Source of the DNA: Halorhabdus amylolytica
Lineage (GTDB): Archaea; Halobacteriota; Halobacteria; Halobacteriales; Haloarculaceae
DNA length: 64,000 nt
Assembly: GCF_004944975.1 (NCBI RefSeq)
Contig: NZ_SPQG01000002.1
Coordinates: 1-64,000 of the forward strand
Reading direction: 5' to 3'
Shown in pieces: positions 2,084 through 19,656 of the stretch. Every line of letters begins with the position of its first letter. Position 1 is the first letter of the stretch. The notes below the pieces were generated by a model. The model searched no databases, was not told where the DNA came from, and was given only the letters and a program-made list of their open reading frames with translations. Both the position numbers and the translations under genes were made by a program.

Positions 2084-4324
2084 ATGGCGTTTTCACTTGA
2101 GACACATATGGCTGATGCAGATCTATTCCGCTGTCAAGTCGGTGAAGAACGTATCTCAGGTTTTGTGGGGACAGTTGTTCGCCCGGTTGGCGACCGTGAG
2201 GGATCTGTTCAGCTGGAGGATGTCTTTGGTGAGGAGGAGCTAGACGAAGTGCGTCGGGTTTGGAGTCTTGACGAGGCTGAGGATTCGGAGGTATTCGATC
2301 AGATAGATGCGGGCGATGTCGTGCTGTTTACTCATTCTGATGCTGTGGTAGGGTTTACGGTCATTGCAGCTACTGCTGAATCTGAGGAACTTGGAGACCA
2401 GCTATGGGGAAAATCATCCTTCAGCAAGTTGCTATTGCTCCAAGAACTGGTACCAGTGTCGCTGTCAGTCTCGGACCTATATGAAGAGTTAGGATACGGG
2501 AGTGAAGCGTCGTCGCCTGAAACCCTTCGCATTGATGATGAGGCTAAAGAGACGTTACTCGAATCATACGATAGTCTCTCGAAGTTTGTAGAATCTGTTA
2601 GTACTGCAGCTGAACCTTCGCTGGACGATCTTCTCGGCCAGTCTGACGATAATCCGCCTACTTGTGTCTGGTTGGATCAAACTGAGTTCGAATCCACAAC
2701 ACCGGACAAGATCGGCTTAGCTCAGGGTTGCATATTCTGCCGAGAATCTTCTGAGGGCGGTGAGCAGCTCGCTTCACTCGGGGAAGGTGATGTTCTTGTA
2801 CATCACAGCGAGCGAGAATTTATTGGATACTCCGTCGTTACTGCAGCTCACAGCATCAGCATAGATGAAGTTGACGGAGTTTGGCTGTGGTATGCGTATT
2901 CGCCGTTCGATGAGTCATATCATCCCCAGGATTACGTAGGCCTACTGTTGAATTCGGATGTTGACTTACGCAGTATAGAGTTCAGTTATCAGATCAGGCA
3001 GGGACGAGTTCATTTCACGCCGTGGGAATCAGTCAGAGTCCTTCTTGAGGACTTGGTGGAAAATCCGGCTGAGCGGTTCCTTGAGAGCCGGTATGATAGA
3101 ACGATCAACAGGCTGGGTTTTGATTTGTCTGATGAACCGCTTTATTATCCGGGTGAAGAAGAAAGTCTACAACAGCAGATCAATTCGACGTTAGCTGCCG
3201 GTAAACACATCATCTTTACCGGGCCGCCAGGTACAGGGAAGACCCGATTAGCTCGAACTGTTTGTGAGCACGCAACAAATACTGCGCTTGCCGAGACTGT
3301 GGATGACTACCAATTTACGACGGCGTCGGCTGATTGGACATCGTTCGATACGGTAGGTGGATACTCGCCGTCGAAAACGGAACAGGGGTTAGAGTTTCAG
3401 CCTGGGCAGTTTCTCAAATGTTTCCGCGATGGCGAAGATCTTCGGAATCGGTGGTTGCTTATTGACGAGTTGAACCGTGCTGACATCGACAAGGCGATGG
3501 GCGGGCTGTTTTCGGTGTTGACTGGAGAAGAAGTGGAACTGCCGTATGAGAATCGGGAGCCGGTTCGAGTTACACCGCTTTCCGCTGAGGATGATACCCA
3601 CTTTGGCCGGTCACTGGCTGAGATTGCTGAATCTATAGACACCTATCCGGTGCTTCCGTCCTGGCGGCTGATTGCAACGATGAATACGTCGGATAAGGCA
3701 TCACTATATGAGCTATCCTATGCGTTCACTCGCCGATTCAACTTCATCCACGTAGGAGTACCTGACTTGGAGAAGAATGGACAATTCGTAACGAAGCATC
3801 TTGATCCAACGGCCGAGGAAAGTTACGCAATTGCATTGAGTTCGGAGGAAACGCGTATGCTAGCGAGTGAGAATCTTCAAGCGGAACTAAGCGTTCTCTG
3901 GGGGCGGATCAATAAGCACCGGACCTTGGGGCCGTCGATTATCCTTGATATCATCCAGTATCTCTATGAGTCTATAGAGGATGAGCTGGGATGCTTGCCC
4001 GAGCTTCCATCCGAGGAGAACGGTGAGGGGGAGTCAGAAGAAGATACAGAATCGGAATCGGAGAATGGAGATGACGCCGGGGAAGATGAGGATTCTGGAT
4101 CACGCATCCGGCCTGAACTCTACCAAGGACCTTTGACGGATGCGATCACGATGCTGGTCTTTCCGCAGCTAGAGGGGCTTCGAGAGGATAATCTTGAGGA
4201 GTTGATTCTCAAGTTGGATGATACAGCTGAAACCGTCGATGATGACACCGTTACAGTTCATTTGGAGACGCAGCGTCTTCATCGGAAGGCTGAGGATTTC
4301 TACGGGATAACTATCGATGAGTAG
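2084..4324 (+). CDS. mcrB: McrB-like AAA+ restriction subunit
   Basis: This 746-residue protein is the NTP-driven translocase half of a modification-dependent McrBC nuclease. Walker A is GPPGTGKT at about 380-387, Walker B is WLLIDELNRAD near 457, and the McrB signature MNTSDKA lies near 555. The motor is followed by a very acidic insert (about 645-680). The N-terminus has two similar segments, around residues 75-100 (GDVVLFTHSDAVVGFTV) and 235-255 (GDVLVHHSEREFIGYSV). They look like tandem PUA/EVE-type readers of modified bases; that assignment is inference. A second Met eight codons in (2108) is an alternative start. The gene overlaps mcrC by 8 bp, so the pair is translationally coupled. 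Confidence 0.85.
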   Translation: MAFSLETHMADADLFRCQVGEERISGFVGTVVRPVGDREGSVQLEDVFGEEELDEVRRVWSLDEAEDSEVFDQIDAGDVVLFTHSDAVVGFTVIAATAESEELGDQLWGKSSFSKLLLLQELVPVSLSVSDLYEELGYGSEASSPETLRIDDEAKETLLESYDSLSKFVESVSTAAEPSLDDLLGQSDDNPPTCVWLDQTEFESTTPDKIGLAQGCIFCRESSEGGEQLASLGEGDVLVHHSEREFIGYSVVTAAHSISIDEVDGVWLWYAYSPFDESYHPQDYVGLLLNSDVDLRSIEFSYQIRQGRVHFTPWESVRVLLEDLVENPAERFLESRYDRTINRLGFDLSDEPLYYPGEEESLQQQINSTLAAGKHIIFTGPPGTGKTRLARTVCEHATNTALAETVDDYQFTTASADWTSFDTVGGYSPSKTEQGLEFQPGQFLKCFRDGEDLRNRWLLIDELNRADIDKAMGGLFSVLTGEEVELPYENREPVRVTPLSAEDDTHFGRSLAEIAESIDTYPVLPSWRLIATMNTSDKASLYELSYAFTRRFNFIHVGVPDLEKNGQFVTKHLDPTAEESYAIALSSEETRMLASENLQAELSVLWGRINKHRTLGPSIILDIIQYLYESIEDELGCLPELPSEENGEGESEEDTESESENGDDAGEDEDSGSRIRPELYQGPLTDAITMLVFPQLEGLREDNLEELILKLDDTAETVDDDTVTVHLETQRLHRKAEDFYGITIDE

Positions 4325-5711
4325 TTCGGAGTCAGATAGTCTGGTTGACGAGATTGTGGAGGATTTGACTCCATATCTGAATGGAGGGTCGATTTCAAGA
4401 GCTGAGCTTAATCGAGATCTGGAGTATGAGGGATTGGATATCGATAATTTCGATCGGTTGAAAGATATCCATTTTGCGCTCTCTGAGTCTGTTGTCGAGT
4501 TCGTAGAAGACCTTCCCTATCGTTTGCGGCGCATCTCGACTGAACACGGCCGAGTGAAGTCTGAAAGCAAGGGAGAGATTCATGGCAGTGTAGATTGGGA
4601 TCGGACCTTCGAGCGGCGGTATGAGCAGAATCCCGATGATCCGACGTTATTTGTATGCAATACACCTGTAGCTGAATATGACCTTCCCGAGAATCTTGTT
4701 CTCAGGAAGCTGGTCGAGATAGTCTCAGATATTGTGACGTCGGAGCTGACCGAGATTGATTATGATTGGCGGACAGGTCGGTGGTCAGACGAACTTATTA
4801 CAAGGTTTCAGCGAACACGCTCGAAAAACGTCCATCTGAACCGTATACAAAATCCCGATGAATTCGAGTTGTCCGGCCGTATCCTATCTTCCGCCCGAAA
4901 GTCTCGTAAACCGTTGTACCAAAATGCTTACTCGCTTTACACGACGTACGAGGATTTACAGGAGAATAACTTCGGCTCCGATAGTGTCCGGCAACTCCTG
5001 ACGGATACAGTTGTTCGACCCGGGCGGAAAGAGGTTCTTTTTGAACTGTTTGTGCTTTGCCGTCTTCTCCGTGCCTACGAGACAATCAACAACCTGTCTC
5101 TGCGACGTCTAGAATCGACAGCGACCAAGTTCGCCCATCTCTCCCGTGAGGATTGCGAGATTCGAGTGTATCATCGTCGGCAGGGTGATTCTGTTACATT
5201 TTCAGAACCAATAGACCGGGATCGTGATTACGGGCATCGGTTCCTGCAGCGGGAACAGGCGGCACTGAGAGAGTACGAACAGACTTTCGGGGAGTTGCTT
5301 GATGGTTCGGGTATCAATTGGGTGATCTATACAGGGCAACCTGATTTCATTTTCGAGGAGTACTATGATCGCTCGCCGGATTCGGAGCCGCCCGATCGAG
5401 TCATCATTGGTGAGGTCAAGCGAAGCAGTAGACGGGATACTATTCGAGAGGGGCTCCGCGAGTTAGCAAAGTACGCGAAGTTTGCCAGGTACCCTGACTC
5501 CAGCAGTAGTGGTGATCCGCAATATTTAGACGACTCTGGATCGGGAACGGTTGTAGAAAAGGTCCTGGTAACTCAGGACTTTGAGACTGCCTCTACTTCG
5601 CCTGAAGTTGTACATCTCCAGTCGAGTGACTTGAGGCGCAGCACCGGGTTTACTTCCAGGGTAGAGCCACTTGTTGCTTATCGCAGTTCCGGTTTGGTAT
5701 CTACTGGTTAA
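4317..5711 (+). CDS. mcrC: McrC-like nuclease subunit
   Basis: This 464-residue protein follows mcrB with an 8-bp overlap. The C-terminal third holds a PD-(D/E)xK nuclease core: QPDFIF at about residue 340 supplies the Asp, and IIGEVKRSS at about 363-371 supplies the E-x-K pair. The N-terminal two thirds are helical and would form the McrB-binding part. McrC proteins bind the McrB ring and cut DNA when it translocates to modified sites. The length is in the usual range for the larger McrC variants. Its 3' end overlaps that of the convergent GHKL ATPase gene by 3 bp. Confidence 0.85.
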   Translation: MSSSESDSLVDEIVEDLTPYLNGGSISRAELNRDLEYEGLDIDNFDRLKDIHFALSESVVEFVEDLPYRLRRISTEHGRVKSESKGEIHGSVDWDRTFERRYEQNPDDPTLFVCNTPVAEYDLPENLVLRKLVEIVSDIVTSELTEIDYDWRTGRWSDELITRFQRTRSKNVHLNRIQNPDEFELSGRILSSARKSRKPLYQNAYSLYTTYEDLQENNFGSDSVRQLLTDTVVRPGRKEVLFELFVLCRLLRAYETINNLSLRRLESTATKFAHLSREDCEIRVYHRRQGDSVTFSEPIDRDRDYGHRFLQREQAALREYEQTFGELLDGSGINWVIYTGQPDFIFEEYYDRSPDSEPPDRVIIGEVKRSSRRDTIREGLRELAKYAKFARYPDSSSSGDPQYLDDSGSGTVVEKVLVTQDFETASTSPEVVHLQSSDLRRSTGFTSRVEPLVAYRSSGLVSTG

Positions 5712-7720
5712 ATCTCGTCCTCGGGTTTGTATGCGATGGAGTACGGGTCTCCTTGCAGGTCGTTATAGTCTTGTAGCTCGCTGAGGTCTGTCTCGAAGAC
5801 TGAGGAAGCGTCAGGAGCGACTAGACGTACTTCAGACAGGCTACTGTTCTCGCGTTTGTAGTGGTTCTGTACCATTGCCAGCGTGTACGCATCTGCTGGC
5901 GTAGCGGTCTCCGATTTGATGACCCACAGGATTACTGAATCGTCTTCCTGCGTTTCGACGAGATCGACTTCTGCACCATCGAAGACCTGATCCTGTTCAA
6001 AGCTATGATCTGGATTCGCGTCTTTCAGCTGTTCAACTACGCTATCTGAACCGGTGTCGTCACCATTTTCTTCCGACTCATCTTCGTCCTCTTCCGTTTC
6101 TTCCCCACTGCCTTCATCCTCTCCTTCCCCGTCTTCTCCATCTTCCCTGTCTTCTTCATCTTCCCCGTCTTCTCCATCTTCCCCGTCGGTATTGTCATCT
6201 CCTTCTGTATCGTCTTCCGACTCGTCTTCTTCGTCGGTTTCATCGCCGGCGTCCTCCTCACCTTCTCCCTCATCGCTTCCATTTTCACCTTCATCGCCTC
6301 CCCCATCGCTATCCTCTTCTTCCTCTTCCTCGCCGCCTTCTTCCTCCTCACCACTACCGTCTCCTTCTTCTTCTCCGTCTCCTTTTTCGCCTTCGTCGGG
6401 TTTCTCTTCCCTTTCTTCCTCTTCGTCATCGTCGTATCGCTTCTCTTCGACACCTAATTCACGGAGTTTTTCAGCCAGGTTATGCCAGAGTTCGCTTCCT
6501 CGATCGATTGCAACTTTTCTGTTCTCGGTCGGTACCTCATCGCTATTGTTCTGTGGAATGATTCGGACAACGCCTCCGAAATAATTGAGTGCAGGATTAT
6601 AGCTACGGTCGAAAATGTCCAGTTCTCCAAACATCAGGATGCGGCCGTTCGCGTAGACATCGACACCCGCCGTTGCCTGTGATGGAGTGTACCACCTCAA
6701 CTTGTTACCGCTCGTAACTAAGCCACTATCTGCTTCCTCCGCAGCAGCACAGATTTCTTCGTAATCGATCATCCCGCGCTCATATGTCACGTCGTAGGTG
6801 ACACCGTCGGCAGTTATCTCGAATTCATCTACTAACGGATAGTCAGGATCGAGTTCAGTATCGTATTCCAGATCCAGCGGCGGGACTTCATAGACTTGCG
6901 TAGTACCATCGTCCTTGTCTTCGTAGCGGATGGTAATCCGGTTATCTTCCCGTGTTTTCAGCAGATATCGATATTGCAGTCCGAGGCGTTCCTGTAATGC
7001 GTGGAGGCGAGTCGAAAGATCGGCCGGCCCCTGCTTCCACAAATCCTCGTCAACGCGGTCAAGGGTACAAGGGAGATAGACGCGGGTTCCAGTTTCCTCA
7101 GCCTCCAGAGAATCTCCCTGCAACCCATCAGTCCACAGAGAGTTATCCCGCTCTTCATAGATTTGGAGTGAGCCATCGATTGGGCCGCCTACACTGAGCA
7201 GCCCATCTTCTTCGGACCGGGTGATAATCCGGAAATTACTGTCTCTCGCTGAATCTTCGATATCGACGTTAATGTTCACTTGATTCTCGAACCACGCGAC
7301 GGCTTGCTTCAATCCCCATCCAACGTTGTTTAGAATGCCGTCGGAGGAACTCTCGTCACCGAGTATGAAGATATCCCGTTGAAGTGTGTCATATGGAATA
7401 CCCGGTCCGTTATCGGCGACGATAAACCAGACGAGATCTCCTTCTTTAATTATCGAGATACAGATTTCGACGACATCGTCTTCCTTCTCTGTGAGTTCAT
7501 CGAAGTAGTCTTCGTTCTTGACTATTGCTGAGACGCTGTTGTCGATTGGTTCCTGCAGAGCGTCGATAAAATTCGTGTACTGGTGGCTAAGACCAGATGC
7601 AACATCCTGAAGCTGCATCGTGGTCTCACACGAGCCTCTGGGTGTGCGAGATTCACCCCCATCAGTTACGAGCCGAGAAGATGTGTGTAATACAGACGAG
7701 GAACCCTCTTCAGAGGTCAT
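5708..7720 (-). CDS. GHKL (MORC/MutL-like) ATPase with acidic linker
   Basis: The N-terminus is a Bergerat-fold ATPase. The N box is DALQEPIDNSV, the DxGxG box is ADNGPGIP and the lid/G2 box is NNVGWGLKQA, the pattern of MORC/MutL-type ATPases rather than histidine kinases. A transducer-like middle region ends at YDDDEEEE. About 170 residues of almost pure Glu/Asp/Gly/Ser follow. The last ~100 residues (AEVDLVET, then VILWVIKSE, then QNHYKRE) look like a PD-(D/E)xK core whose usual Glu before x-Lys is Ile. The start was set at ATG 7720, about 30 bp from a TATA-like TTAACTA; the frame is open to 7750. Its paralogue is the N-terminal half of the gene at 10440. The family is known from predicted restriction-modification operons; its function here is inferred. 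Confidence 0.75.
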   Translation of the reverse strand: MTSEEGSSSVLHTSSRLVTDGGESRTPRGSCETTMQLQDVASGLSHQYTNFIDALQEPIDNSVSAIVKNEDYFDELTEKEDDVVEICISIIKEGDLVWFIVADNGPGIPYDTLQRDIFILGDESSSDGILNNVGWGLKQAVAWFENQVNINVDIEDSARDSNFRIITRSEEDGLLSVGGPIDGSLQIYEERDNSLWTDGLQGDSLEAEETGTRVYLPCTLDRVDEDLWKQGPADLSTRLHALQERLGLQYRYLLKTREDNRITIRYEDKDDGTTQVYEVPPLDLEYDTELDPDYPLVDEFEITADGVTYDVTYERGMIDYEEICAAAEEADSGLVTSGNKLRWYTPSQATAGVDVYANGRILMFGELDIFDRSYNPALNYFGGVVRIIPQNNSDEVPTENRKVAIDRGSELWHNLAEKLRELGVEEKRYDDDEEEEREEKPDEGEKGDGEEEGDGSGEEEEGGEEEEEEDSDGGGDEGENGSDEGEGEEDAGDETDEEDESEDDTEGDDNTDGEDGEDGEDEEDREDGEDGEGEDEGSGEETEEDEDESEENGDDTGSDSVVEQLKDANPDHSFEQDQVFDGAEVDLVETQEDDSVILWVIKSETATPADAYTLAMVQNHYKRENSSLSEVRLVAPDASSVFETDLSELQDYNDLQGDPYSIAYKPEDEI

Positions 7721-7893
7721 AATAATGAGGGACAGCGCAAGCAACTTCAATGTTAGTTAAGAGATCCCTACCGTAGCTACTCTCGGTTCTGGAGATTCAA
7801 CAGATCGGAAAGACGTAGGAACCAGCTTCTGATCCTCATCCGTAACTTAGCCTTGGATCAGAAATCTATGGATATCCCGTTCACTGGTACTGT

Positions 7894-8340
7894 ATGACGC
7901 GAGTTCTTTCACGCCGTCTATACAAGGCCGAGGAACTTCTGAAGGAGGTCAATTCTTGGTGTGTGGCAGAAGTAGAGGAGTTGCCGGAATTGTACCGTAA
8001 GAAGGCAAGAGAATACAGGGGGATTCTGCAACAGGGCGAGGCATATCTGGCAACCGGCTCCAAGTCTCATATACTGTGGGGGATGGATTACCTCGACCGA
8101 TCCACTGGTTTTGATATCGAAGAACTGCTGGAAGAATCTTCTGAGAAGGAGCAGCAACGTCTCGAAAAGGAGCGGGAACGAATGGAGGAACAACTGGAGC
8201 AACGCGTCGAAGTCCACGAAGAGATCGTCGACGAATTAGAGTCCAAGCTGGATTGGTACAAGGAGCGGTTGGAATCCTTATATAAGCAGAGACGGGGTCG
8301 GAACAGTAAACGGGAACAGTCGAAGCAGCAGATATCCTAA
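7894..8340 (+). CDS. Coiled-coil protein, cut short by an in-frame stop
   Basis: This 148-residue protein begins with a small helical domain (TRVLSRRLYKAEELLKEVN, then a YLDRSTGFDIEEL segment). From about residue 80 it is a long charged coiled coil (EKEQQRLEKERERMEEQLEQ and on). It is transcribed away from the GHKL gene and toward the methyltransferase gene. Beyond the TAA at 8338-8340 the same frame stays open and clearly coding-like to a TGA at 8470-8472. The protein was therefore probably about 190 residues before a nonsense change. I recognise no family; a structural or adaptor role in the surrounding system is a guess. Confidence 0.6.
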   Translation: MTRVLSRRLYKAEELLKEVNSWCVAEVEELPELYRKKAREYRGILQQGEAYLATGSKSHILWGMDYLDRSTGFDIEELLEESSEKEQQRLEKERERMEEQLEQRVEVHEEIVDELESKLDWYKERLESLYKQRRGRNSKREQSKQQIS

Positions 8341-8600: not shown

Positions 8601-10172
8601 TTAGTTGGTCTCGTCGAAGTTTCCGAGCACTGTCTGTTTTCCATCCATCTCGTCGACTTCTTGCTGCGGGTTTTCAACTTGGATGCCAAGATTCGACACT
8701 AGAGGTACCCAGTGGGTGGATTGATATCGCTTCCACTCGCCGTTTTCAACCATCGATCTCCACAGATCAAAGGTGAGTTCCGTTTGGTACCAATGGTGTA
8801 TTCCGTCAGGGTAGACATAGAGGGGATTGATCGATGAGAGATCGAGTACTTGGGGAGCAGTCTCTTCGAACCAGTCCTCGACAGGATGTGCGTTTAGTTC
8901 GAAGTCAACTTCGTAATAGTCTCCAGACCCTCTGTTTGCTGAGATCAAGTTTTCTGCTGCTTGGCCGAATATGTCATTGAGTTCCCGGACTTTGTCGGTT
9001 CCGAGATAGTGCAGCTGTGTCTGTGGTTTGGTATCAATACCGATAGTTTCCGGGTCAGTCACTGCTAGCATGGAGCTGATGTCTTTCCGTTGGATATCGA
9101 TTTCCTCGTTGCTAACTAGTTCTCTTTGCAGTCGGAAAGCGTATTTGTGGATGCGAAGTGCCCAGATGAGATATTTGAGGTTGTGGCTGCCTTCTTCGCC
9201 AAATAGGGTTTGCTGTTCAGTTTGTTGTTCAGTCTCCTGTTCCTCGATAGCGGGGAGAACGTGTTTATGATAGTGTTCGATGAAGTCCTCGTTGAGTTCG
9301 AATCCGATTGGACGACGGTCTAGTCGTTCCGCCACTGCCAGTGTGGATCCAACGCCGGCGAACGGGTCTAAGACTATGTCGCCGGGGTCTGTAGCTAACT
9401 TGATAATTCGTTCGACGAGGGGTTCCGGAAACGGGCTTGGATGGTAGTTGAGTTTGGGTCCCCACTCTCCCTGTTTGGGGATCGGGAACCCCCATATGTT
9501 CTCAGGTAATTTTCCCTTCGGGTGGTATCTCTCTGGGTAATTCACCCACCATCGGCCGAATTCGTCTGTGTCCTGGATGCGGATGGAGTCAGCGTTGTAC
9601 TTGTAATCATTCGTCTTGGCGTACATCGAGATATGTTCGTAGATGTTCCGTAGCTGGCCTTTTTTCCTCCAGGGACGCGTCCGCTGCTTGTTCCATATAA
9701 GATGGTCTTTCAGCTGCCAAGATTCATCGAGAGGATTGACCTCTTCATTACAGATGTCGCAGTGCAGCATTCCGGTTCCTCTGTCTCGTTGAAGTCGGCC
9801 ATTACAGTCTTCGTCAGGACAGAGACGGCGCTTTTCCAGATTTTCCAGCTCATCAGCGATATCGAACGGAGGACGGACAATACGGTTGTTCCGACGAAAG
9901 GTATCTGTGACAATCCACAGTGTACTCTCGTCAGAGGCCACATCGTAGCACTGCTTGAAAATGGTACGTAGGTCTTCGAGAAAGTCCTCATACAGTTGTT
10001 CGCCTATTTGTCCTTCCTGGTCGCCGTAGTCCTGCATATCGGCGTAAGGAGGCGAAGTAATGATTGCATCTACCACTGTCTCGGTTGATTCAAACCATTT
10101 TTCGAGTTCATATTTTAGATTCCGCGCATCAGCTTGATGGATATCAAAGACGGAATCCGAAGTCTCACCCAT
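8601..10172 (-). CDS. Beta-class DNA methyltransferase (stand-alone paralogue)
   Basis: The protein is 523 residues from the Met at 10172; the frame is open to 10199. The catalytic motif IV TSPPY is at about residues 39-43, before the SAM-binding motif DPFAGVGST near 267. That order defines beta-class amino methyltransferases (N6-adenine or N4-cytosine). Between them is a zinc ribbon (CPDEDC then CDIC). The C-terminal ~220 residues are a separate domain ending WVPLVSNLGIQVENP. The same architecture, zinc ribbon and C-terminal motif recur in the fused gene at 10440, so the two are ancient duplicates. The start was chosen because FDIHQADARN aligns with FEIHQQDSMQ of the paralogue. It is likely the modification subunit that marks self DNA. 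Confidence 0.85.
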   Translation of the reverse strand: MGETSDSVFDIHQADARNLKYELEKWFESTETVVDAIITSPPYADMQDYGDQEGQIGEQLYEDFLEDLRTIFKQCYDVASDESTLWIVTDTFRRNNRIVRPPFDIADELENLEKRRLCPDEDCNGRLQRDRGTGMLHCDICNEEVNPLDESWQLKDHLIWNKQRTRPWRKKGQLRNIYEHISMYAKTNDYKYNADSIRIQDTDEFGRWWVNYPERYHPKGKLPENIWGFPIPKQGEWGPKLNYHPSPFPEPLVERIIKLATDPGDIVLDPFAGVGSTLAVAERLDRRPIGFELNEDFIEHYHKHVLPAIEEQETEQQTEQQTLFGEEGSHNLKYLIWALRIHKYAFRLQRELVSNEEIDIQRKDISSMLAVTDPETIGIDTKPQTQLHYLGTDKVRELNDIFGQAAENLISANRGSGDYYEVDFELNAHPVEDWFEETAPQVLDLSSINPLYVYPDGIHHWYQTELTFDLWRSMVENGEWKRYQSTHWVPLVSNLGIQVENPQQEVDEMDGKQTVLGNFDETN

Positions 10173-10439
10173 CGTACGTAGTAAATAACCTCCACCCATA
10201 TAACATCAAAGAACCCCTGGCCTCTATCCACAGGCCTACAGCACTGTCACTAGGGAACTAGTCCGGGAAACGTGTCAGGAACGATCAGAAAACTTAAAAC
10301 ACCTAGATCAATTGGAGTCTGTTATAATGGTTGCTTCGGACCGCCAGCCCGGATTTATCTCCGATAACGCGTTGGCGCTCAACAAGATTGCTTTTAAGCG
10401 GTTCTCAGCTAGTGAATCTTCCTCTCCTCGGAGACAACT
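10173..10439. promoter_or_regulatory. Divergent promoter region between the two methyltransferase units
   Basis: These 267 bp separate the minus-strand methyltransferase from the plus-strand GHKL-methyltransferase fusion and must carry both promoters. An AT-rich AACTTAAAAC near 10290 is a TATA candidate. No convincing gene is seen in it. Confidence 0.35.
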
Positions 10440-13373
10440 ATGAGTCGGCAGACAAGGGCGACCTGCGATTCCGAGGTAGAACTCTCCACGTTGGCCTCGG
10501 GAATGGCAAAGCAGCACGAAAGGTATCAGGATGCGCTCCAGGAACTAATCGACAACTCGGTCTCGTCCGTGGTGAAGAACGAGGCATACTTCGATGATCC
10601 GGAGACCCCGATTAAGATAGTAATCACGCTTCGACGCACCGAGAACACTGTCCGAACGACTATTGCCGATAATGGACCAGGTATCAGCAGGGAAGCTCTT
10701 CAGAATGAAATCTTCCGAACCGGGAACAAGAAAGAATCCAACGGTATCCTGAATAACGTTGGCTGGGGTCTGAAAGCCAGTCTTGCTTGGTTCGAGGAAA
10801 CTCTGTCGCAGGCTAATCCCACACCGGAGAACGAATGGTTTACACTGGTAACCCAGACCAGTGGGTCAGAGAGATACCGGGTTGATGGGCCTATCACCGG
10901 AGACCTGCCTATCTCTCATGCTGATGATGATGCCTGGATTGATGGGTTAGGTATCGGTGATCACAGTCTCGGTGAATACGAAAGTGGAACCCGTGTCCAC
11001 GTCAGCTGTAGCCGACCCAAGTTCGATAACGACGTCTGGCCATCAGCCAAATCACTGGAAATCAAAGCCCAGACACTACGAGAGCTGCTCGGAGTCAAGT
11101 TCCGTCGGCTGCTCTCCGTTCACCCTGAGAACGAAATATACATCGATTATGAAGATGAGACTAACGGGAAGAGCGGCTCTCTACCTGTTATCCCAATCTT
11201 CCCCCAGTACGTGTCGAACGACCAAGACCCGCCGACACCTTACGCGGAGGACTCGTTTGAAATAGAGGGTGATGACGGTGCAGTGTATGACGTAGAGTTC
11301 GAACGTGGGACGCTTGATTTCGACGCGATGACCAGTGAGCTGGCCGACGACTATCCTGGTCTCTTCACTACAAGTGGCCGGTTCAGAACCAGATTCAGAC
11401 CCAACCAGTCCAAGCAGGGTGTCGATATCTATGCTAATGGCCGTATCTTGATGACCTCGGTATTCACTGATCTTTTCGACCTGATCAGGAATAACGAGTA
11501 CAACTATTTCGGGGGTGAAGTCCGTATCTTCCCGAAGGAAGGGACGGACGAGGTTCCAACGGACAACAAGAAGGTTCGTGTCGATACTAACAGCACATTA
11601 TGGCAGAATCTGTGTGAAATCCTCTCCAGCGACAAGTACCAGCCTGAGGGGAAGCGGTATGACGAAGCATATGACGAGTCCGAGTCGGAGGCTGAAAATA
11701 CTTCAGTGAAAGAGGTAGACTCTACAGAGACCTCTTCCGGAGCGGCTGACATCGGTCTCACTATCGATACGCCCAGTCTTTCCGCTGCTGATGACCTTTT
11801 TGAGATTCATCAGCAGGATTCGATGCAGTTGGAAGAGACTCTTCGAGGATTTGATGATGTTCCCGATGAAGGCGGTTTTGTCGATGCAACCTTGACTTCA
11901 CCGCCGTACTTCGACCTCAAGGACTATGGGTATGAAGCGGAGGAGCAGCTGGGTCAAAGCGGTTCATACGACCAGTATCTTGAGGAGATGCGAGAGGTCT
12001 TCAAGCAGGTATACAACGTTACCAAAGATTCCGGAACTCTTTGGGTGGTGGTGAACACGTTCAAGAACAACGGTGAAATCGTCCAGCTTCCGAATGATAT
12101 TGCTTCTATTTGTCAGAACCTATCAGGGATAGAACAATGTCCTGAGTGTGGCTCTTCGCTACGACTAGACCAACTTGATCATCAGCTCACCTGCCGCGAA
12201 TGTGACTACACTCATAACCGTAAGTCGGATTCATGGTTGCTGCAGGATATCGTCATCTGGAACAAAACCCGGGCCTTACCCTACAACAGCGACGGCCAGT
12301 TCAGGAACGTCTTCGAGTACATCCTGTGCTTCAGCAAAACTGATTCCTTCGAGTTTGACGTTGACAAGACACGTATAGCAGATCCGACACAGTTCAAACA
12401 GTGGTGGGTCGAATATCCGGAAAGGTATCATCCACGAGGTAAGGTTCCGGACAATATCTGGGAGCACGTAACCCCTCCTCAGGGTTCATTTGGTGGAATT
12501 GATTCACTGGATCATCCAGCACCGTTCCCCACCGCGCTTGTGGAGCGAATTCTCCGCTTGACCACGAAACAGGACTCTATAGTACTCGACCCGTTCGCTG
12601 GTTCGGGAACGGTGCCTGCTGTGGCAGACATTATGGGACGTCGCTCTATCGGCTTCGAGCTGAGCCCACAGTATTGCGAAGCATATGATTCAGTTAAAGA
12701 GGAAATCTCAGAGAAGTACGGGGATCGGCTTCGATCTCAGACATCTGAACAACAAGAGGATCTTGCGAAGGTGATCGGAAGCCTACGGCAAATAAAGCAT
12801 ATCCGTGAACTTCTTCGAAAACACGGAAAGAAGTCAAACGGTGGTTCTCACGATGATCTGACTATCCACACTGTTTTCCACCTTTGCCGGGAGATAAACG
12901 TCCAATCAACTGATCAGGATCGATTTATCGACTCGGATATCTACTATATCGTTGACGACGATCTGAACGAGGAACTCCAATCCAATCTTCAGCAAAACCT
13001 ACGATCGATTGCAGCCAACGGGATCAGCGCCTCTTACGGCATCAATCCGACTGTAAACGTATATTCTACCAGCGAGTTCCTTGAACAGGCAATAACACAG
13101 TCTGGGATGTCGTCTATTGGTGATCTGTATGTCTACGAAGGGGGGCGGCATTACGATTACAAGGAGAAGATCAGCTTGTCTGATTGGGTCGAACGGGCTG
13201 TTGGGACGAACAAATGGAAACAGGAATTCGCCCAGAAGGAGTGGCCGCCGATCGTGAGTAACGTCGGTCTTGCTGTGGACAATCCGCGTCGTGGTGGAAG
13301 TCAAGAAGGAAGCGAAGATGATACCGCAGATCAGATAGAGATTCTCGGAATTGACGATCTAGCTCTCAGTTGA
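10440..13373 (+). CDS. GHKL ATPase-DNA methyltransferase fusion
   Basis: This 977-residue protein joins two functions that are separate genes next door. Residues ~15-420 are a Bergerat ATPase with N box DALQELIDNSV, ADNGPGIS and NNVGWGLKAS, closely matching the gene at 5708-7720. A short acidic linker (~425-455) follows. From ~457 it is a beta-class methyltransferase: motif IV TSPPYFDLKDYG near 485, zinc ribbon (CPEC then CREC) near 562-583, motif I DPFAGSGT near 717, and the shared C-terminal WPPIVSNVGLAVDNP. All key residues of both enzymes appear intact. The fusion suggests that the ATPase and methyltransferase work as one complex. It heads a run of plus-strand genes to 18079. Confidence 0.85.
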   Translation: MSRQTRATCDSEVELSTLASGMAKQHERYQDALQELIDNSVSSVVKNEAYFDDPETPIKIVITLRRTENTVRTTIADNGPGISREALQNEIFRTGNKKESNGILNNVGWGLKASLAWFEETLSQANPTPENEWFTLVTQTSGSERYRVDGPITGDLPISHADDDAWIDGLGIGDHSLGEYESGTRVHVSCSRPKFDNDVWPSAKSLEIKAQTLRELLGVKFRRLLSVHPENEIYIDYEDETNGKSGSLPVIPIFPQYVSNDQDPPTPYAEDSFEIEGDDGAVYDVEFERGTLDFDAMTSELADDYPGLFTTSGRFRTRFRPNQSKQGVDIYANGRILMTSVFTDLFDLIRNNEYNYFGGEVRIFPKEGTDEVPTDNKKVRVDTNSTLWQNLCEILSSDKYQPEGKRYDEAYDESESEAENTSVKEVDSTETSSGAADIGLTIDTPSLSAADDLFEIHQQDSMQLEETLRGFDDVPDEGGFVDATLTSPPYFDLKDYGYEAEEQLGQSGSYDQYLEEMREVFKQVYNVTKDSGTLWVVVNTFKNNGEIVQLPNDIASICQNLSGIEQCPECGSSLRLDQLDHQLTCRECDYTHNRKSDSWLLQDIVIWNKTRALPYNSDGQFRNVFEYILCFSKTDSFEFDVDKTRIADPTQFKQWWVEYPERYHPRGKVPDNIWEHVTPPQGSFGGIDSLDHPAPFPTALVERILRLTTKQDSIVLDPFAGSGTVPAVADIMGRRSIGFELSPQYCEAYDSVKEEISEKYGDRLRSQTSEQQEDLAKVIGSLRQIKHIRELLRKHGKKSNGGSHDDLTIHTVFHLCREINVQSTDQDRFIDSDIYYIVDDDLNEELQSNLQQNLRSIAANGISASYGINPTVNVYSTSEFLEQAITQSGMSSIGDLYVYEGGRHYDYKEKISLSDWVERAVGTNKWKQEFAQKEWPPIVSNVGLAVDNPRRGGSQEGSEDDTADQIEILGIDDLALS

Positions 13374-13453
13374 TCTAATATAGACTCTTCCTTCGCATGG
13401 AGATAATTTTCAGGGGCAATTTCTATTATAGGCCAGATTCAATATTGAGATAG

Positions 13454-15550
13454 ATGTCTCTGAGGGATTACCCGTGGGAGGGATACTATCCTGGGCACGT
13501 GGATATTTTGGAGGAGTTCTTTATTCCTGCGCTCAAGCACTCGACTTATTACGATCGGATAACCGGCAGCTTTTCGTCTTCTGTTTTGGAGCTGTTTTCT
13601 GAAGGACTGCCTGAATTCATCGAGAAAGGTGGGACAATTCGCCTTCTTCCTGGAGTTGTGCTTTACGAGGAAGATATTGAAGCGATTAATCAGGGTCACT
13701 CTGACGAGGTTTTGTCAAAACGGATTGAGTGGGAGAGGGTAAAGCAGGGGAGCCGTGAGGAGGTGATTGAGGCCTTGGCATGGTTAGTTGCCGAGGATAT
13801 TCTGCAAATCAAGGTTGGTGTGGTAACCGATGAATTGGGAAGGTTACAGACACAGCAAGAGGCAGAGTGGCATCAGAAGATTGCTATTTTCAGAGATGAC
13901 GAGGATAACGCGATCGGGATTACCGGATCGCCTAATGAGTCGTTCAAAGCGTTGCAGCAGAATCGAGAGAGCTTCAGCCTTTTCCGGAATTGGATGAAAT
14001 CTGAGGAAAATGAGTGGGATGAGAAAACCCGGCTGGATAAGCAGATAGATGAGTTTGAGCAGCTATGGAATGATGAGGATCCGGAGTCTGCTGTGTTCGA
14101 TTTTCCGGAGGCGCTTCGCAGGGATCTAATCGAGAAAGCCCCGGAGTCCGAGCCCGACTGGGATGAAGTTATTCTTGGCGGGAGTGACGGAGTAAGCGGC
14201 CGTGAGGATATTGAACTGCGGCCGTATCAAGAAGAGGCTATCCAGAGATTTCTTGATAACGGGAATCGACTTGTTCTTGATCACGCGACAGGCACAGGGA
14301 AAACCTGGACCTCGCTTTTGGCGATGCAGCACGCGGTTGAGGACTCCGATATTGTTGTTGTCTTTGCTCCGACGAAGGACTTGGTCAATCAGTGGGTAGA
14401 TGGTGACAATATCACGCGGTTCTTCCCGGAGAGCAGTATCGTCCGGTGTCTGGGAGATACGAATTGGCGTGAACGTTTGCAGAACTATCTCTTTACTGAG
14501 CGGTCGGATCCTCTGTTCGTGGTGTCAACAATGCATCCTAGCACGATGGAAGACGTCATCGAACGAGTGAATTCGAATAAGGAGTCGGGGATTGCAGTGA
14601 TTGCGGATGAGGTACACAACTTGGGTTCTAATCTCCGCCGAACTATCTTCCCGGATCTGGAAGCGGATCGAGCCAGAATCGCTTTGAGTGCTACGCCATT
14701 CCGTGACGATCCCGGCGATGAAGCTATTATCGAATATTTCGGGGACACTATCCACGAAATATCAATAGAAGATGCAATAGAAGAATACGAAGTGCTTAGC
14801 AAGTACGAATACCACATTCACCCGGTTGTCTTGTCGGACAGCGAACGGAAGCGGTTCCGTGATCATTCTACCGAGATTTCCCACCTGTATAATACGTACA
14901 AGTCCTATGAGGACCAGTCTCTAATTGAGGTATCAGATCGGCATCCGGATCTGAAGGTTGAGGTGATGGATCGAGCTCGGATTGTTAAGGAGTGTTCAGC
15001 TAAACTTGATGTTACGAGGTCGTTGATTGATGAAGCAGGAACACGGACCTTAGTTTACTGTAATACTGAAGAGCACACTGAACAGGTTGTCGAGGAAGTC
15101 GACGATCATACTACGAAGACCGTCTCGATATTCCTCGGTCGTCTCCCCTCCAGCGAAAAAGAGAATCTGTTAACTCATTTTGAGGGAGGGAAAATTGATG
15201 TCTTGGTTTCTATTGATTGCCTTACAGAGGGTATCGACGTACCTGAGTGTGACTCCGCTATCTTGGTAACAAGTTCTACCACGGAGCGAGAGGCCGTGCA
15301 GCGACGTGGCCGTATCTTGCGTGAAGCAGAAAGTGATGAACCGGCCCATCTCTATGACTTCGTCACTTTACCAGCTGATCTTAAGAAAATCAAAGCAGGG
15401 GAGGCTGATCTTGTCCCTGCTGAGATTTCGCTGATTAAGCGCGAACTGCAGCGTCTACGTATTATGAATGCCGATGCAGCGAATAAGATGGAGAATGATC
15501 CCCGTATTTTAAGATTAAGTCGTGCCATCACGCAGTACGATCTCGAATGA
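13454..15550 (+). CDS. Superfamily II helicase with N-terminal PLD-like domain
   Basis: This 698-residue protein has two parts. Residues 1-~190 resemble a phospholipase-D-type nuclease, with H140-x-K142 in EWHQKIAIF and GITGSPN following. Residues ~255-690 are a helicase: Walker A ATGTGKT near 278, a DEVH box (VIADEVHNLG) near 385, SATPFRDD (motif III), and CLTEGIDVPECD with QRRGRILR (motifs V and VI). This is the layout of type III-like restriction helicases, in which the motor feeds a nuclease. The last 4 bp overlap the next small gene, and the operon runs on through the SMC gene. It is likely the effector or translocase of the surrounding system; only one HxK was found, so the nuclease needs care. 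Confidence 0.85.
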   Translation: MSLRDYPWEGYYPGHVDILEEFFIPALKHSTYYDRITGSFSSSVLELFSEGLPEFIEKGGTIRLLPGVVLYEEDIEAINQGHSDEVLSKRIEWERVKQGSREEVIEALAWLVAEDILQIKVGVVTDELGRLQTQQEAEWHQKIAIFRDDEDNAIGITGSPNESFKALQQNRESFSLFRNWMKSEENEWDEKTRLDKQIDEFEQLWNDEDPESAVFDFPEALRRDLIEKAPESEPDWDEVILGGSDGVSGREDIELRPYQEEAIQRFLDNGNRLVLDHATGTGKTWTSLLAMQHAVEDSDIVVVFAPTKDLVNQWVDGDNITRFFPESSIVRCLGDTNWRERLQNYLFTERSDPLFVVSTMHPSTMEDVIERVNSNKESGIAVIADEVHNLGSNLRRTIFPDLEADRARIALSATPFRDDPGDEAIIEYFGDTIHEISIEDAIEEYEVLSKYEYHIHPVVLSDSERKRFRDHSTEISHLYNTYKSYEDQSLIEVSDRHPDLKVEVMDRARIVKECSAKLDVTRSLIDEAGTRTLVYCNTEEHTEQVVEEVDDHTTKTVSIFLGRLPSSEKENLLTHFEGGKIDVLVSIDCLTEGIDVPECDSAILVTSSTTEREAVQRRGRILREAESDEPAHLYDFVTLPADLKKIKAGEADLVPAEISLIKRELQRLRIMNADAANKMENDPRILRLSRAITQYDLE

Positions 15551-15729
15551 CAGGAATTGATCCGGACATCGAGGATATCCTAGATGAGGAAGTTAAGGAC
15601 TTCCACACAAAACAGATGTTACGGGAAATTCTCGACTGGGAGGATCAGCAACTCTACAAAACAAGACGTCGCGGAAAGAAAGACGCTCTTGAAGGGTTCT
15701 TAGATAACTACCTCGAAGATAAAAAATGA
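15547..15729 (+). CDS. 60-residue operon protein
   Basis: A short, highly charged helical protein (IEDILDEEVKDF, then a basic RRRGKK patch) without a motif I recognise. Its ATG overlaps the stop of the helicase gene (ATGA), and its stop overlaps the ATG of the SMC gene in the same way. The double coupling argues strongly that it is translated and belongs stoichiometrically with them. It is possibly a bridge between helicase and SMC protein. Confidence 0.7.
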   Translation: MTGIDPDIEDILDEEVKDFHTKQMLREILDWEDQQLYKTRRRGKKDALEGFLDNYLEDKK

Positions 15730-17672
15730 AACTACAATCTGTAGAGATAGTCAACTTCCGGCCATACCGGGATTCCCACTTGGACCTTACCGATCGCGAT
15801 GGTTCCATACACGTAGTAGAAGGTGATCAGGGAGGAGGAAAGACCAGTCTTCATACAGCGATCCAGTGGGGTCTATACGGTGGAGATGGACCCGGTACGA
15901 ATTATTCGGAGCACTGGAACGAACGTGCAAAGCAGGACCGAGAAGAGAAAATGTCGGTAGAAATTAAATTCAAAGAGGGGGAACGGAGCTATACTCTCAT
16001 CCGGGAAATTGACCGGTTCAACCATACACAAGGCCGTGCCTACGAAGAGACGACATTAATCGGAAATACCAATACCTATTCTGATGAAGAGGCTCAGAAC
16101 CAGATTGAAGAGATCCTACCTGAGCAGCTGAAGGAATTTTTCTTTTTAGACGGTGAACGGATCCAGAGGCTGATTGAGGAGGATGCCGGGCAGCAGGTGA
16201 AGCGTGAAATTGAGACCGTTCTCAAGCATCGAACAATAATCAATGCTCAAAACGATCTTGAGGATCTGTTAGAGGACCGGTTGATTCCTCGTCGAGATAA
16301 GATTGAGGAGGAAGCAAGTGAGCGCGACGAGATTGTGCAGGAGATATCGGAGTACCGCGATGATATCAAGGACCTGAAAGAGCAAAATGAGGATGATCGT
16401 GACAAGATTCAGGAAAAGAATAAGATACTGGAGGAGACACGTGAGGAGCTCGAAGAGCTAAATGAGGAGAAGATCGAGGAGATCAACGACTTGGAAGCGG
16501 AAATTCAGGTTCTTCAACAAGATAAGGTCAAGATCCTTTCTGAGTTGAACCAATCGTGGAAGGAACTTCGCTACGCTATTCTATTTGATGATGTAGCCGA
16601 TTTGAAGCAGGAGCTTAAGAGACAGATTAAGGAATACGATGAGCAGCTGTCGGAGATTGAGCGTAACCAGATTATCTATGAATTAACTGAGGAAGCCAGA
16701 GAGGGCGAGTGTCCAATCTGTGGGAATGATGATATTGAATATCTGAAGCAGCACGATCACGAGGACCACGATGAAAACTTGAAGGAGCAAATTACGGAAA
16801 GAATTGTTGAACTACGTGAGATGCGGGACAGACTTGATTCTGTTGAACCACCCGAAGATGCTCCCGGGGACAAGCAGGTCCGCCTTGAAGAAATCACGAG
16901 TAAGATCGAGGAAAAGCAGGATCGGCGTGATGAACTGTTAGATGAGTTAGGAGGTCTTCCGGAGGAAAGTGAGCGAGACACGTTGGAACAGAACATCAAG
17001 CAGCTTGAAAACGATATCAGAGATCTTCGTGAGGATATAGAGGATCGAGAAAAGAAGATTCAGAAAATACAGCAGGAGATCAAGAAGTTAGAGAATAAGC
17101 GGGAGGAGCGTTCCTCGAACAAGGATTTGGAAGAGGTTACTGACAAGATTGGGGCGGCCAAGACTGCTATTGAGAAACTGAAAACGATACGTGAGAAGCA
17201 TGTCCGAGAGAAACGGAAGAAGATCCGGGATGAGATGAATGAGGTGTTCGATCAGGTAGCGCAGTCTGAGTTTATGAACGAACGTTACAAGGGACTCGAT
17301 TTCCGGGGAACCCCGGATGAGGACGATTCTTATGTTCTCCAGCTAGTCGAAGTTGATGGCGAGACAAAAGATATGGTTAATCATCAGCCGTCGGCTGGTG
17401 AATCGCAGTTAACCGCTCTCAGCTTTATTTTCGGTCTCAATAAGTATGCGCGTTATTCTTCGACGGTCGTATTCGATACCGTTGCTGGACGGCTTGATTT
17501 GACCAACAGTGAAGCACAGGGAGAGTTCTTTGCGTCACTAGATGAGCCACTTCTGTTGCTCGTAACGGATTCGGAACTCCGTGATCTCGGTAAATCCGTT
17601 CAGCAGGAAATTGGTGCTCACTACGAAATCAAGCCTGAGGGAAAGGACTCAAAACTTAAAAAAGTGAAATGA
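15726..17672 (+). CDS. DndD-like SMC/RecF-type ATPase
   Basis: This 648-residue ABC-type ATPase has Walker A GDQGGGKTS at ~33-41 and a long coiled coil broken near residue 329 by a zinc-hook CPIC. The signature SAGESQLTAL and Walker B VVFDTVAGRLD are near the C-terminus. The FFFLDGERI segment at ~138 and the D-T (not D-E) Walker B with GRLD are typical of DndD, the ATPase of DNA phosphorothioation clusters. No dndB or dndC is visible, so a sulfur-modification role cannot be claimed. It more likely acts as a DNA-sensing or cutting ATPase with the PLD-helicase. It overlaps the genes on both sides by 4 bp. Confidence 0.8.
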   Translation: MKLQSVEIVNFRPYRDSHLDLTDRDGSIHVVEGDQGGGKTSLHTAIQWGLYGGDGPGTNYSEHWNERAKQDREEKMSVEIKFKEGERSYTLIREIDRFNHTQGRAYEETTLIGNTNTYSDEEAQNQIEEILPEQLKEFFFLDGERIQRLIEEDAGQQVKREIETVLKHRTIINAQNDLEDLLEDRLIPRRDKIEEEASERDEIVQEISEYRDDIKDLKEQNEDDRDKIQEKNKILEETREELEELNEEKIEEINDLEAEIQVLQQDKVKILSELNQSWKELRYAILFDDVADLKQELKRQIKEYDEQLSEIERNQIIYELTEEAREGECPICGNDDIEYLKQHDHEDHDENLKEQITERIVELREMRDRLDSVEPPEDAPGDKQVRLEEITSKIEEKQDRRDELLDELGGLPEESERDTLEQNIKQLENDIRDLREDIEDREKKIQKIQQEIKKLENKREERSSNKDLEEVTDKIGAAKTAIEKLKTIREKHVREKRKKIRDEMNEVFDQVAQSEFMNERYKGLDFRGTPDEDDSYVLQLVEVDGETKDMVNHQPSAGESQLTALSFIFGLNKYARYSSTVVFDTVAGRLDLTNSEAQGEFFASLDEPLLLLVTDSELRDLGKSVQQEIGAHYEIKPEGKDSKLKKVK

Positions 17673-18079
17673 TGAAATTCGACGAAATCTCCGGAGCTCA
17701 AACCGTTCACGTTACGACCGAGAAATTCGAGAAGGTAGCGACCTCGATCAATGAGACATTGAAGAACAACGACGGCAATCCGGTGGAAAACACTCAGATA
17801 GCGAATCTGGCGATTGCAGTTGGGTTCAAAGAAGAGCGGCGTGAAGAACCGGAAAGTACGAATAAGCCGATAAAAATGGAATCGCTAGATCAGGACAAGG
17901 TTCTCCGGACGATGATTGAGCGTCGACACGAGGATACCTCTCCAGAGGAATTGAAGGAGATTATGGAGCAATATCTGGAGGGGGGAATTCGAGAAATAGT
18001 CGAGGATATTGATGAACAGAACTACTTTGAATACCACCGATACCTCGATACTGACGTCGGAGCCCCCTCAGACGATTGA
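17669..18079 (+). CDS. Small DndE-like partner protein
   Basis: A 136-residue acidic protein whose ATG overlaps the stop of the DndD-like gene. The N-terminal half (VHVTTEKFEKVATSINETL, then NTQIANLAIAVGF) and the final YLEGGIREIVEDI resemble the layout of DndE. DndE is a small helical protein that binds nicked DNA and always accompanies DndD. The similarity is by pattern only. Position and size support a partner of the ATPase. It closes the operon that starts at 13454 or 10440. Confidence 0.6.
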   Translation: MMKFDEISGAQTVHVTTEKFEKVATSINETLKNNDGNPVENTQIANLAIAVGFKEERREEPESTNKPIKMESLDQDKVLRTMIERRHEDTSPEELKEIMEQYLEGGIREIVEDIDEQNYFEYHRYLDTDVGAPSDD

Positions 18080-18663: not shown

Positions 18664-19656
18664 ATGCCTCCAGACCGACTCCGCAGCATCGTCCCAATGT
18701 TCGGCGGCGGAGATCACTACGTCGAAACCTTGGACGCGATATTGGATTTCGTCAAGACCCACCACCCAACGACTGAAGAGCTAGTCGGCTGGCATCGCGG
18801 GGCGTTCGCGAACGTTGCAAGCCGGGACTCGATCATGCGGCGGGTCAAGTACCTCCACAGAGTCGGCTTCCTGGACGAAACAGACGATCGCTGGGGACTC
18901 GGCGATGCCGGCCAGGAATACCGAGCGGCGGGCGATATCTCAACCCTGCTCCGCATCATGTGCGATCGAAACGTCGGCCTCCGGAGCCTCATGTACGCGC
19001 TCGCGGCTGGCCCGATGACTCTGAGCGAGGTAAGCGAACAACAACTCGACACGCACCCGGAGCTGGGATGGAGTGAAGGCGAGACGGACATGGCGAAACA
19101 GCGGGTGAACTGGCTACGGAGCATGGGACTCGTCGAGCAACACGGCGACGAGTATCAGTTATCGGCCGATGGCCGCCAGTTCGTCGAAAGCGCAGTCACC
19201 GAGTGGGCTGACTCCGAGTGGACACCCTCCGTGGACGCGTCTGGCACGGCGATGCACGCTGGCATGTACGAGGCGACAACCCACGCCCGGTCAGTTGATC
19301 CGGAGTTCCGGGCGACGGTGCTGTCCCGGCACGACCGGACATGTCCGATATCCGGCGTGGATCATCCCTGGCTGTTGGACGTGGCGCATGTCCTGTCGTG
19401 GAGTGACTATCCCGACCACCGGGCCGACCTCTCGAACGTGCTGGCACTCAGCAAGACACACCACGCGGCCTTTGACCGTGAGCTGTTCACGATCGATCGG
19501 GATTATCGGTTGCGTGTGAATCCCGAGTTCGAGACGGAGAGTGACGTGTTACAGCGGACGATCATCGATCGTGCGGGGGAGCGAGTCTCCATTCCTGAGG
19601 AGAGCTTGAAGCCGGAGTATGTCGCGCAGCACAACGCAGCGCTAGAGTGGGTGTGA
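18664..19656 (+). CDS. HNH endonuclease with N-terminal winged-helix domains
   Basis: This 330-residue protein has a C-terminal HNH nuclease core: CPISG near 236, then LLDVAHVLSWSDYPDHR, SNVLALSKTHHAAFDREL. It contains the first His, the Asn and the HH pair of the family. Residues 1-~190 hold two winged-helix-like segments (for example EELVGWHRGAFANVASRDSI and an AKQRVNWLRSMGLVE helix), probably for DNA recognition. The gene is clearly GC-richer than the cluster to its left, so it has a different origin or longer residence. It stands alone and is likely a restriction-type or repair nuclease. Confidence 0.75.
   Translation: MPPDRLRSIVPMFGGGDHYVETLDAILDFVKTHHPTTEELVGWHRGAFANVASRDSIMRRVKYLHRVGFLDETDDRWGLGDAGQEYRAAGDISTLLRIMCDRNVGLRSLMYALAAGPMTLSEVSEQQLDTHPELGWSEGETDMAKQRVNWLRSMGLVEQHGDEYQLSADGRQFVESAVTEWADSEWTPSVDASGTAMHAGMYEATTHARSVDPEFRATVLSRHDRTCPISGVDHPWLLDVAHVLSWSDYPDHRADLSNVLALSKTHHAAFDRELFTIDRDYRLRVNPEFETESDVLQRTIIDRAGERVSIPEESLKPEYVAQHNAALEWV

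Follow-up and report, generated by a model that had tools for sequence, protein, structure and literature searches.

PbeABCD loci, which also go by the name of CxC ABC-ATPase–DndE systems of defence (Xiong 2019, PMC6459918; 2024 reappraisal, PMC10853773), are already known to occur with methyltransferase genes, which adjoin 155 of 320 solitary pbeAC loci (PMC6459918, PMC10853773). For phosphorothioation systems, it is accepted that the modification and restriction parts evolve independently (PMC12707154). GHKL ATPases are likewise known from restriction-modification (R-M) loci: prokaryotic MORC and paraMORC loci combine a GHKL-S5 ATPase with a methyltransferase, an SF2 helicase and an HKD nuclease (Iyer 2008, PMC2292703), and the two-component-like HEF_HK/paraMORC genes near R-M systems link a GHKL ATPase to DNA methyltransferases (PMC8011034). 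Among Type IV McrBC systems, methyltransferase-associated branches have been described (PMC11090510).

The window analysed here, a stretch of 64,000 nucleotides from the haloarchaeon Halorhabdus amylolytica, carries a PbeABCD module of the described kind on the forward strand. PbeA (13454-15550; PADLOC PbeA, E 2e-233) joins an HKD (phospholipase D-type) nuclease domain, with the motif HQK..D..GSPN at 140, to an SF2 helicase with GTGKT and DEVH motifs, and its match to NCBIfam TIGR04095 lies below the cut-off of that family. It is followed by a PbeB-like protein of 60 aa (15547-15729), which had no family match and was assigned by position and size to the SP gene of related loci; by PbeC (15726-17672; PADLOC PbeC, E 4e-169), a CxC-type ABC ATPase related to DndD with a CPIC zinc hook; and by PbeD (17669-18079), which had no PADLOC match and only weak unrelated Pfam matches, and was assigned by its DndE-like position and its co-divergence with PbeA and PbeC (r 0.96-0.98). 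Neighbouring genes overlap by 4 nt each, and the order of an HKD nuclease-SF2 helicase PbeA and a CxC ABC ATPase PbeC is that of PbeABCD and CxC-DndE systems.

The modification side of the locus differs from that of these systems. No dndC (TIGR03183) match was obtained in the window genome, and dndC was absent from 12 of the 13 genomes searched, the window genome included; the exception, an incomplete MAG (G745), carries it on another contig. By contrast, of 24 other Pbe genomes put through the same search, 10 carry dndC, within ~15 kb of PbeA. The linked dndC of the DndCDEA-PbeABCD phosphorothioation system is therefore missing here, and the putative modification part consists of a GHKL ATPase-methyltransferase fusion, designated F, and a second methyltransferase, designated M.

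F (10440-13373, forward strand; Pfam HATPase_c_3 and N6_N4_Mtase) comprises 977 residues, with an N-terminal GHKL-S5 (MORC/Hsp90-like) ATPase at residues 1-~410 and a beta-class DNA methyltransferase with a zinc ribbon at residues ~450-977. That the ATPase is a GHKL-S5 module of the MORC/Hsp90-like kind is borne out by its motifs, its S5-containing fold and a score above the Pfam HATPase_c_3 cut-off. A motif check found ELIDNS, DNGPGI, NNVGWGLK (at 105) and EVPTDNKK intact, the S5-domain lysine of EVPTxNxK being invariant. The MORC motif GhXhhpXXRhl has a counterpart, GVDIYANGRIL in F and GVDVYANGRIL in the standalone ATPase A described below; in contrast to the MORCs of Iyer 2008 (PMC2292703), the "polar" position is alanine, while the other constrained positions fit, and the GHKL ATPase is fused to the methyltransferase itself. 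F also carries a methyltransferase in place of the extra histidine-kinase module of HEF_HK (PMC8011034). The predicted structure of the GHKL half alone (pTM 0.76) was closest among solved folds to MORC3 and MORC4 (Z 19.9 and 19.7), followed by SMCHD1, Hsp90 and TopoVI-B, with ranks nearly tied between MORC, Hsp90 and TopoVI-B; the full-length model (pLDDT 53, pTM 0.38) was left out of this search. Pfam MORC-S5 matched neither F nor A, a PDB sequence-profile search returned no significant GHKL match, and an IMG/VR scan with F as query returned no relative.

M (8601-10199, reverse strand; Pfam N6_N4_Mtase, E 2e-43; position 10172 is an internal ATG) is a standalone beta-class zinc-ribbon methyltransferase, transcribed divergently from F at a distance of 240 bp. 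In BLAST of the translated ORFs, it is 35% identical to the C-terminal half of F over 513 aa (E 9e-102), and Pfam N6_N4_Mtase (PF01555) matches both at E ~1e-43 to 1e-46. Both retain their catalytic motifs in the order of beta-class N4-cytosine/N6-adenine methyltransferases, in which motif IV (TSPPY) lies N-terminal to motif I (DPFAGxG), at 486 and 717 in F and at 48 and 278 in M; this order fits methylation of either base. Among the nearest solved structures are MboIIA, RsrI and an N4C enzyme. The initial annotation, which had located these genes and their paralogy correctly, pointed to a zinc ribbon between motifs IV and I and to a C-terminal VSN...NP motif shared by M and F. Both features are indeed present. 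However, the four cysteines of the ribbon are invariant in 11/11 aligned methyltransferases, fused or unfused, and the SN motif is nearly invariant among the same 11, unfused ones included, which identifies both as family features rather than marks of the M/F pair. M (12 rows, support 100/100) and the methyltransferase of F (11 rows, 97/95) form separate clades of the methyltransferase tree, and five unfused methyltransferases group on the F side (94/91), suggesting that the split between M and the F methyltransferase would predate the fusion. An exclusive sister relationship of the two was not rejected by the AU test (p 0.27).

Relatives of F were found in 12 haloarchaeal loci, including that of the window. 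Their hosts include Halorubrum halodurans, H. xinjiangense, H. aidingense, Halobaculum rubrum, Halosimplex pelagicum, Halococcus dombrowskii (on a plasmid) and a Haloquadratum MAG. The GHKL-methyltransferase fusion was found in all 12, the MAG copy being cut by the contig end with both domains present; an M-type methyltransferase together with PbeA and PbeC likewise occurred in 12/12, and nearly all had a gene at the PbeB/PbeD position. Pairwise-identity matrices across the 12 loci were correlated at r 0.94 between the two halves of F, 0.96 between the F ATPase and M, and 0.92 between the F methyltransferase and M (0.88-0.96 across comparisons). The proposal that ATPase and methyltransferase form one unit in F was thus upheld by constant fusion and co-divergence, and the matching divergence of all three domains indicates that F and M are inherited as one unit. 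The Pbe proteins were as tightly correlated among themselves (PbeA/PbeC, r 0.98; PbeA, PbeC and PbeD, 0.95-0.98), whereas correlation between the F/M set and the Pbe set was only 0.18-0.22 for PbeA and PbeC, and 0.18-0.38 with PbeD included.

This discrepancy is visible in single pairs of genomes. Between G228 and G272, F is 90-93% and M 89% identical, and PbeC 26%; between G343 and G337, the values are 85-89%, 86% and 23%. A tree with PbeC of the F-bearing loci as one clade was rejected (AU p 0.0002). Since F and M co-diverge while PbeC of their loci does not form one clade, F and M have been exchanged as a unit between Pbe lineages. Taken together with the absence of dndC, this movement suggests that F and M most likely stand in for phosphorothioation as the modification module of Pbe.

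Two further observations were made. The space between McrC and pbeA in Halorubrum halodurans (G337; L085:14966-15103) holds a short fragment that shares 78% identity with the F N-terminus and is likely a scar of module exchange. In several loci, two genes absent from the window, X1 and X2, are located between pbeD and F (L089:7761-9880); neither has a Pfam match, and X2 contains, by eye, two LAGLIDADG-like segments.

Pbe loci lacking F were also inspected. The four of them whose Pbe is closest to that of the window (L104-L107) encode a two-ATPase protein of 740-763 aa and a protein of 713-750 aa. Pfam analysis of one of these loci (L105) showed that the former begins with an ATPase domain of the paraMORC type and ends with one of the histidine-kinase type, and that the latter is an Eco57I-like methyltransferase; the other three were assigned by matching size and sequence. 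The two-ATPase proteins were considered as GHKLs of the F/A family and rejected, being relatives at the superfamily level only. Judged by these assignments, the combination of a GHKL ATPase with a methyltransferase occurs beside Pbe in two forms that are unrelated to each other. Different methyltransferases again are found at the remaining F-less Pbe loci, and the Pbe locus of G092 has two different unfused ones.

We consider it likely that the locus is organised as M-F-PbeABCD with F and M as a two-gene modification module, that McrB-McrC-A is a separate cassette, and that the GHKL ATPases have the clamp and licensing roles outlined here. F and M would serve the PbeABCD restriction module in place of phosphorothioation by marking self DNA, each methylating one strand of an asymmetric site. 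The initial annotation had suggested that two copies serve two strands or half-sites; the part that holds is that two diverged methyltransferases are constant partners, F with M in 12 loci and the pair in G092, which fits one enzyme per strand, while A with M as the second copy does not hold. In view of the families nearest in fold, the GHKL half of F probably acts by closing around DNA as a dimer, driven by ATP. By its fold, the GHKL-S5 domain of F may close on ATP as a DNA clamp, which could link the site or its methylation status to PbeCD scanning and the PbeA nuclease-helicase by recruiting or licensing them; unmethylated invader DNA would then be attacked or blocked. Methylation by F and M, and its coupling to Pbe, are suggested by the context of the locus. 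A probably plays an analogous clamp role for McrBC.

Somewhat unlikely, though the strongest competitor, is the view that the GHKL domain does not clamp DNA but controls the methyltransferase of F, acting as a regulatory switch or sensor of a histidine-kinase-like or phage-sensing kind. It draws on the sister F-less Pbe loci, whose paraMORC and histidine-kinase-type protein beside an Eco57I-like methyltransferase is reminiscent of the proposed HEF_HK signalling proteins (PMC8011034). F, however, has an S5 domain with the invariant EVPTxNxK lysine and a MORC/Hsp90/TopoVI-B fold, and no response regulator was identified at F loci. We regard as improbable the explanation that F and M are orphan methyltransferases, a pair with a modification or regulatory role independent of Pbe that happens to occupy the same defence islands. 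The weak correlation of F/M and Pbe distances does indicate that the modules are not strictly co-inherited, and unfused relatives of the F methyltransferase occur in two genomes (G192 and G148) with no Pbe match in the 20 kb covered. Against this, Pbe is present in every F locus whereas PbeA-type genes were found in only 46 of 384 haloarchaeal genomes, dndC is missing where F and M are present, and F and pbeA are co-directional and 80 nt apart in the window. F and M as the modification module of Pbe remains our preferred reading.

McrB-McrC-A is a separate cassette adjoining M-F-Pbe, and both use one GHKL ATPase family. Like Type IV McrBC systems (census in PMC11090510), it has an NTSD-motif McrB-like AAA GTPase (2084-4324, forward strand; Walker A; Pfam AAA_5, E 1e-14; weak NCBIfam McrB match, E 2e-10) and a McrC-like nuclease (4317-5711, forward strand), which overlaps McrB by 8 nt. 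The latter was assigned by a PD...EVK motif only, had no Pfam match and is 25-32% identical to McrC-position genes in related loci. A (5708-7750, reverse strand; position 7720 is an internal ATG) is a standalone GHKL-S5 ATPase with an acidic linker and a C-terminal domain of ~125 aa, and lies tail-to-tail with McrC with a 4-nt overlap. Overlapping open frames on both strands of its Glu/Asp/Gly linker (6037-6584) were discarded as composition artefacts. Between A and M, an ORF for a charged coiled-coil protein of 148 aa (7894-8340), which had no relatives in the compared loci, may or may not be a gene.

Pfam HATPase_c/HATPase_c_3 was assigned to both A and the N-terminal half of F, which are 40% identical over 425 aa (BLAST of translated ORFs, E 2e-94). 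As the initial annotation had observed, the NVGWGLK box is common to both (NNVGWGLK at 141 in A), and equivalents of the N-box, G1, G2 and S5-lysine motifs of F were found in A. It had concluded that the same two enzymes were present once split, as A and M, and once fused. This tempting inference has to be corrected: A is neither the partner of M nor the split half of an A+M unit. A and M are on the same strand, yet they border different cassettes. Standalone GHKLs besides A were found in five genomes (G333, G132, G766, G337 and G818), and 5/5 abut McrB, within ~12 nt or overlapping, with McrC next in line in G766, G337 and G818. Their GHKL gene is directly upstream of McrB and co-directional, an arrangement that differs from Type IV McrBC as described (PMC11090510) and from A, which is instead tail-to-tail with McrBC. 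When a profile was built from the C-terminal 125 aa of these five GHKLs, it matched A (60.7 bits, E 2e-18) but none of the F and M proteins, and the highest score among 200 shuffles of the tail of A was 5.7 bits, so that A shares both its C-terminal domain and its McrB/McrC neighbours with the McrBC-linked GHKLs.

Genome-wide, F and M occurred without any other GHKL of the A/F family in seven genomes (E <= 1e-15). G818 has the closest relative of the window locus: its DNA matches window positions 8617-13371 at 92% and positions 13414-18062 at 93% identity; the match ends at the end of M, with no such match across A or McrBC. Beyond M, G818 has a GHKL-McrB-McrC cassette, the GHKL of which is of a different lineage, 32-33% identical to A, indicating that A is exchangeable relative to M-F-Pbe. 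The McrBC ties of A, the occurrence of F and M without A, and the G818 locus together imply that A and M differ in their history. The initial annotation had named unrelated phylogenies of the halves as the outcome that would speak against duplication of a unit, and the differing histories of A and M correspond to it. That the A-M pair arose by duplication as a diverged, split version of the F unit, with the copies reading two half-sites or strands, is very improbable. In its favour, both halves are clearly paralogous, and A has the NVGWGLK box and a GHKL domain whose identity to F (37-40%) slightly exceeds that to the McrBC-linked clade (32-37%). Against it, a standalone GHKL lies near the ever-present M only where a McrBC cassette adjoins, A carries the C-terminal domain of the McrBC-linked GHKLs, seven genomes do without a standalone GHKL, and the G818 locus lacks A. 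That A is not half of such a unit would not make its ATPase domain a proven sister of the McrBC-linked GHKLs; a tree with A beside F was not rejected (AU p 0.48), and distant outgroups (G215, Lactiplantibacillus plasmid), with branches of ~9, failed to root the GHKL tree.

Other genes were noted downstream of pbeD. In an HNH protein (18664-19656), the C-terminal half is similar to HNH enzymes that restrict phosphorothioated DNA (NF045808, below cut-off). The winged-helix-like region at its N-terminus (residues 12-170) is met again at the start of McrB in several of the GHKL-McrB cassettes, and L053 encodes it as a protein of its own of 183 aa. Possible Argonaute-like (23331-25985) and CARF-like (21377-22204) proteins, recognised by eye, suggest a larger defence island.

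Neither a conserved GHKL-methyltransferase fusion of Pbe nor a GHKL-McrB(-McrC) cassette was found in the literature searched, a scope outside which Krishnan et al. 2020 (NAR), on CxC systems, falls. GHKL and MORC go unmentioned in the text of the 2024 Pbe reappraisal (PMC10853773) and in the McrBC census (PMC11090510), and the main text of PMC2292703 mentions neither McrB nor a GHKL-methyltransferase fusion. Both the fusion with a second methyltransferase at Pbe loci and the GHKL-McrB(-McrC) cassette thus appear to be undescribed.

A connection between MORC proteins and DNA methylation has long been inferred. In F, a MORC-like ATPase and a DNA methyltransferase are naturally joined in one chain, within a small defence locus in which the domains can be mutated one by one. 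More tentatively, F and M could constitute a portable self-marking and licensing module, in which a MORC-type clamp, fused to one of two strand-specific methyltransferases, defines the target and reports methylation status to whichever PbeABCD lineage adjoins it; this possibility is on the doubtful side, but if it is true, effectors whose PbeC are only ~21-26% identical would be exchangeable under one modification module. Pbe systems also trade their modification and effector parts as entire modules, through which what Pbe recognises becomes directly testable.
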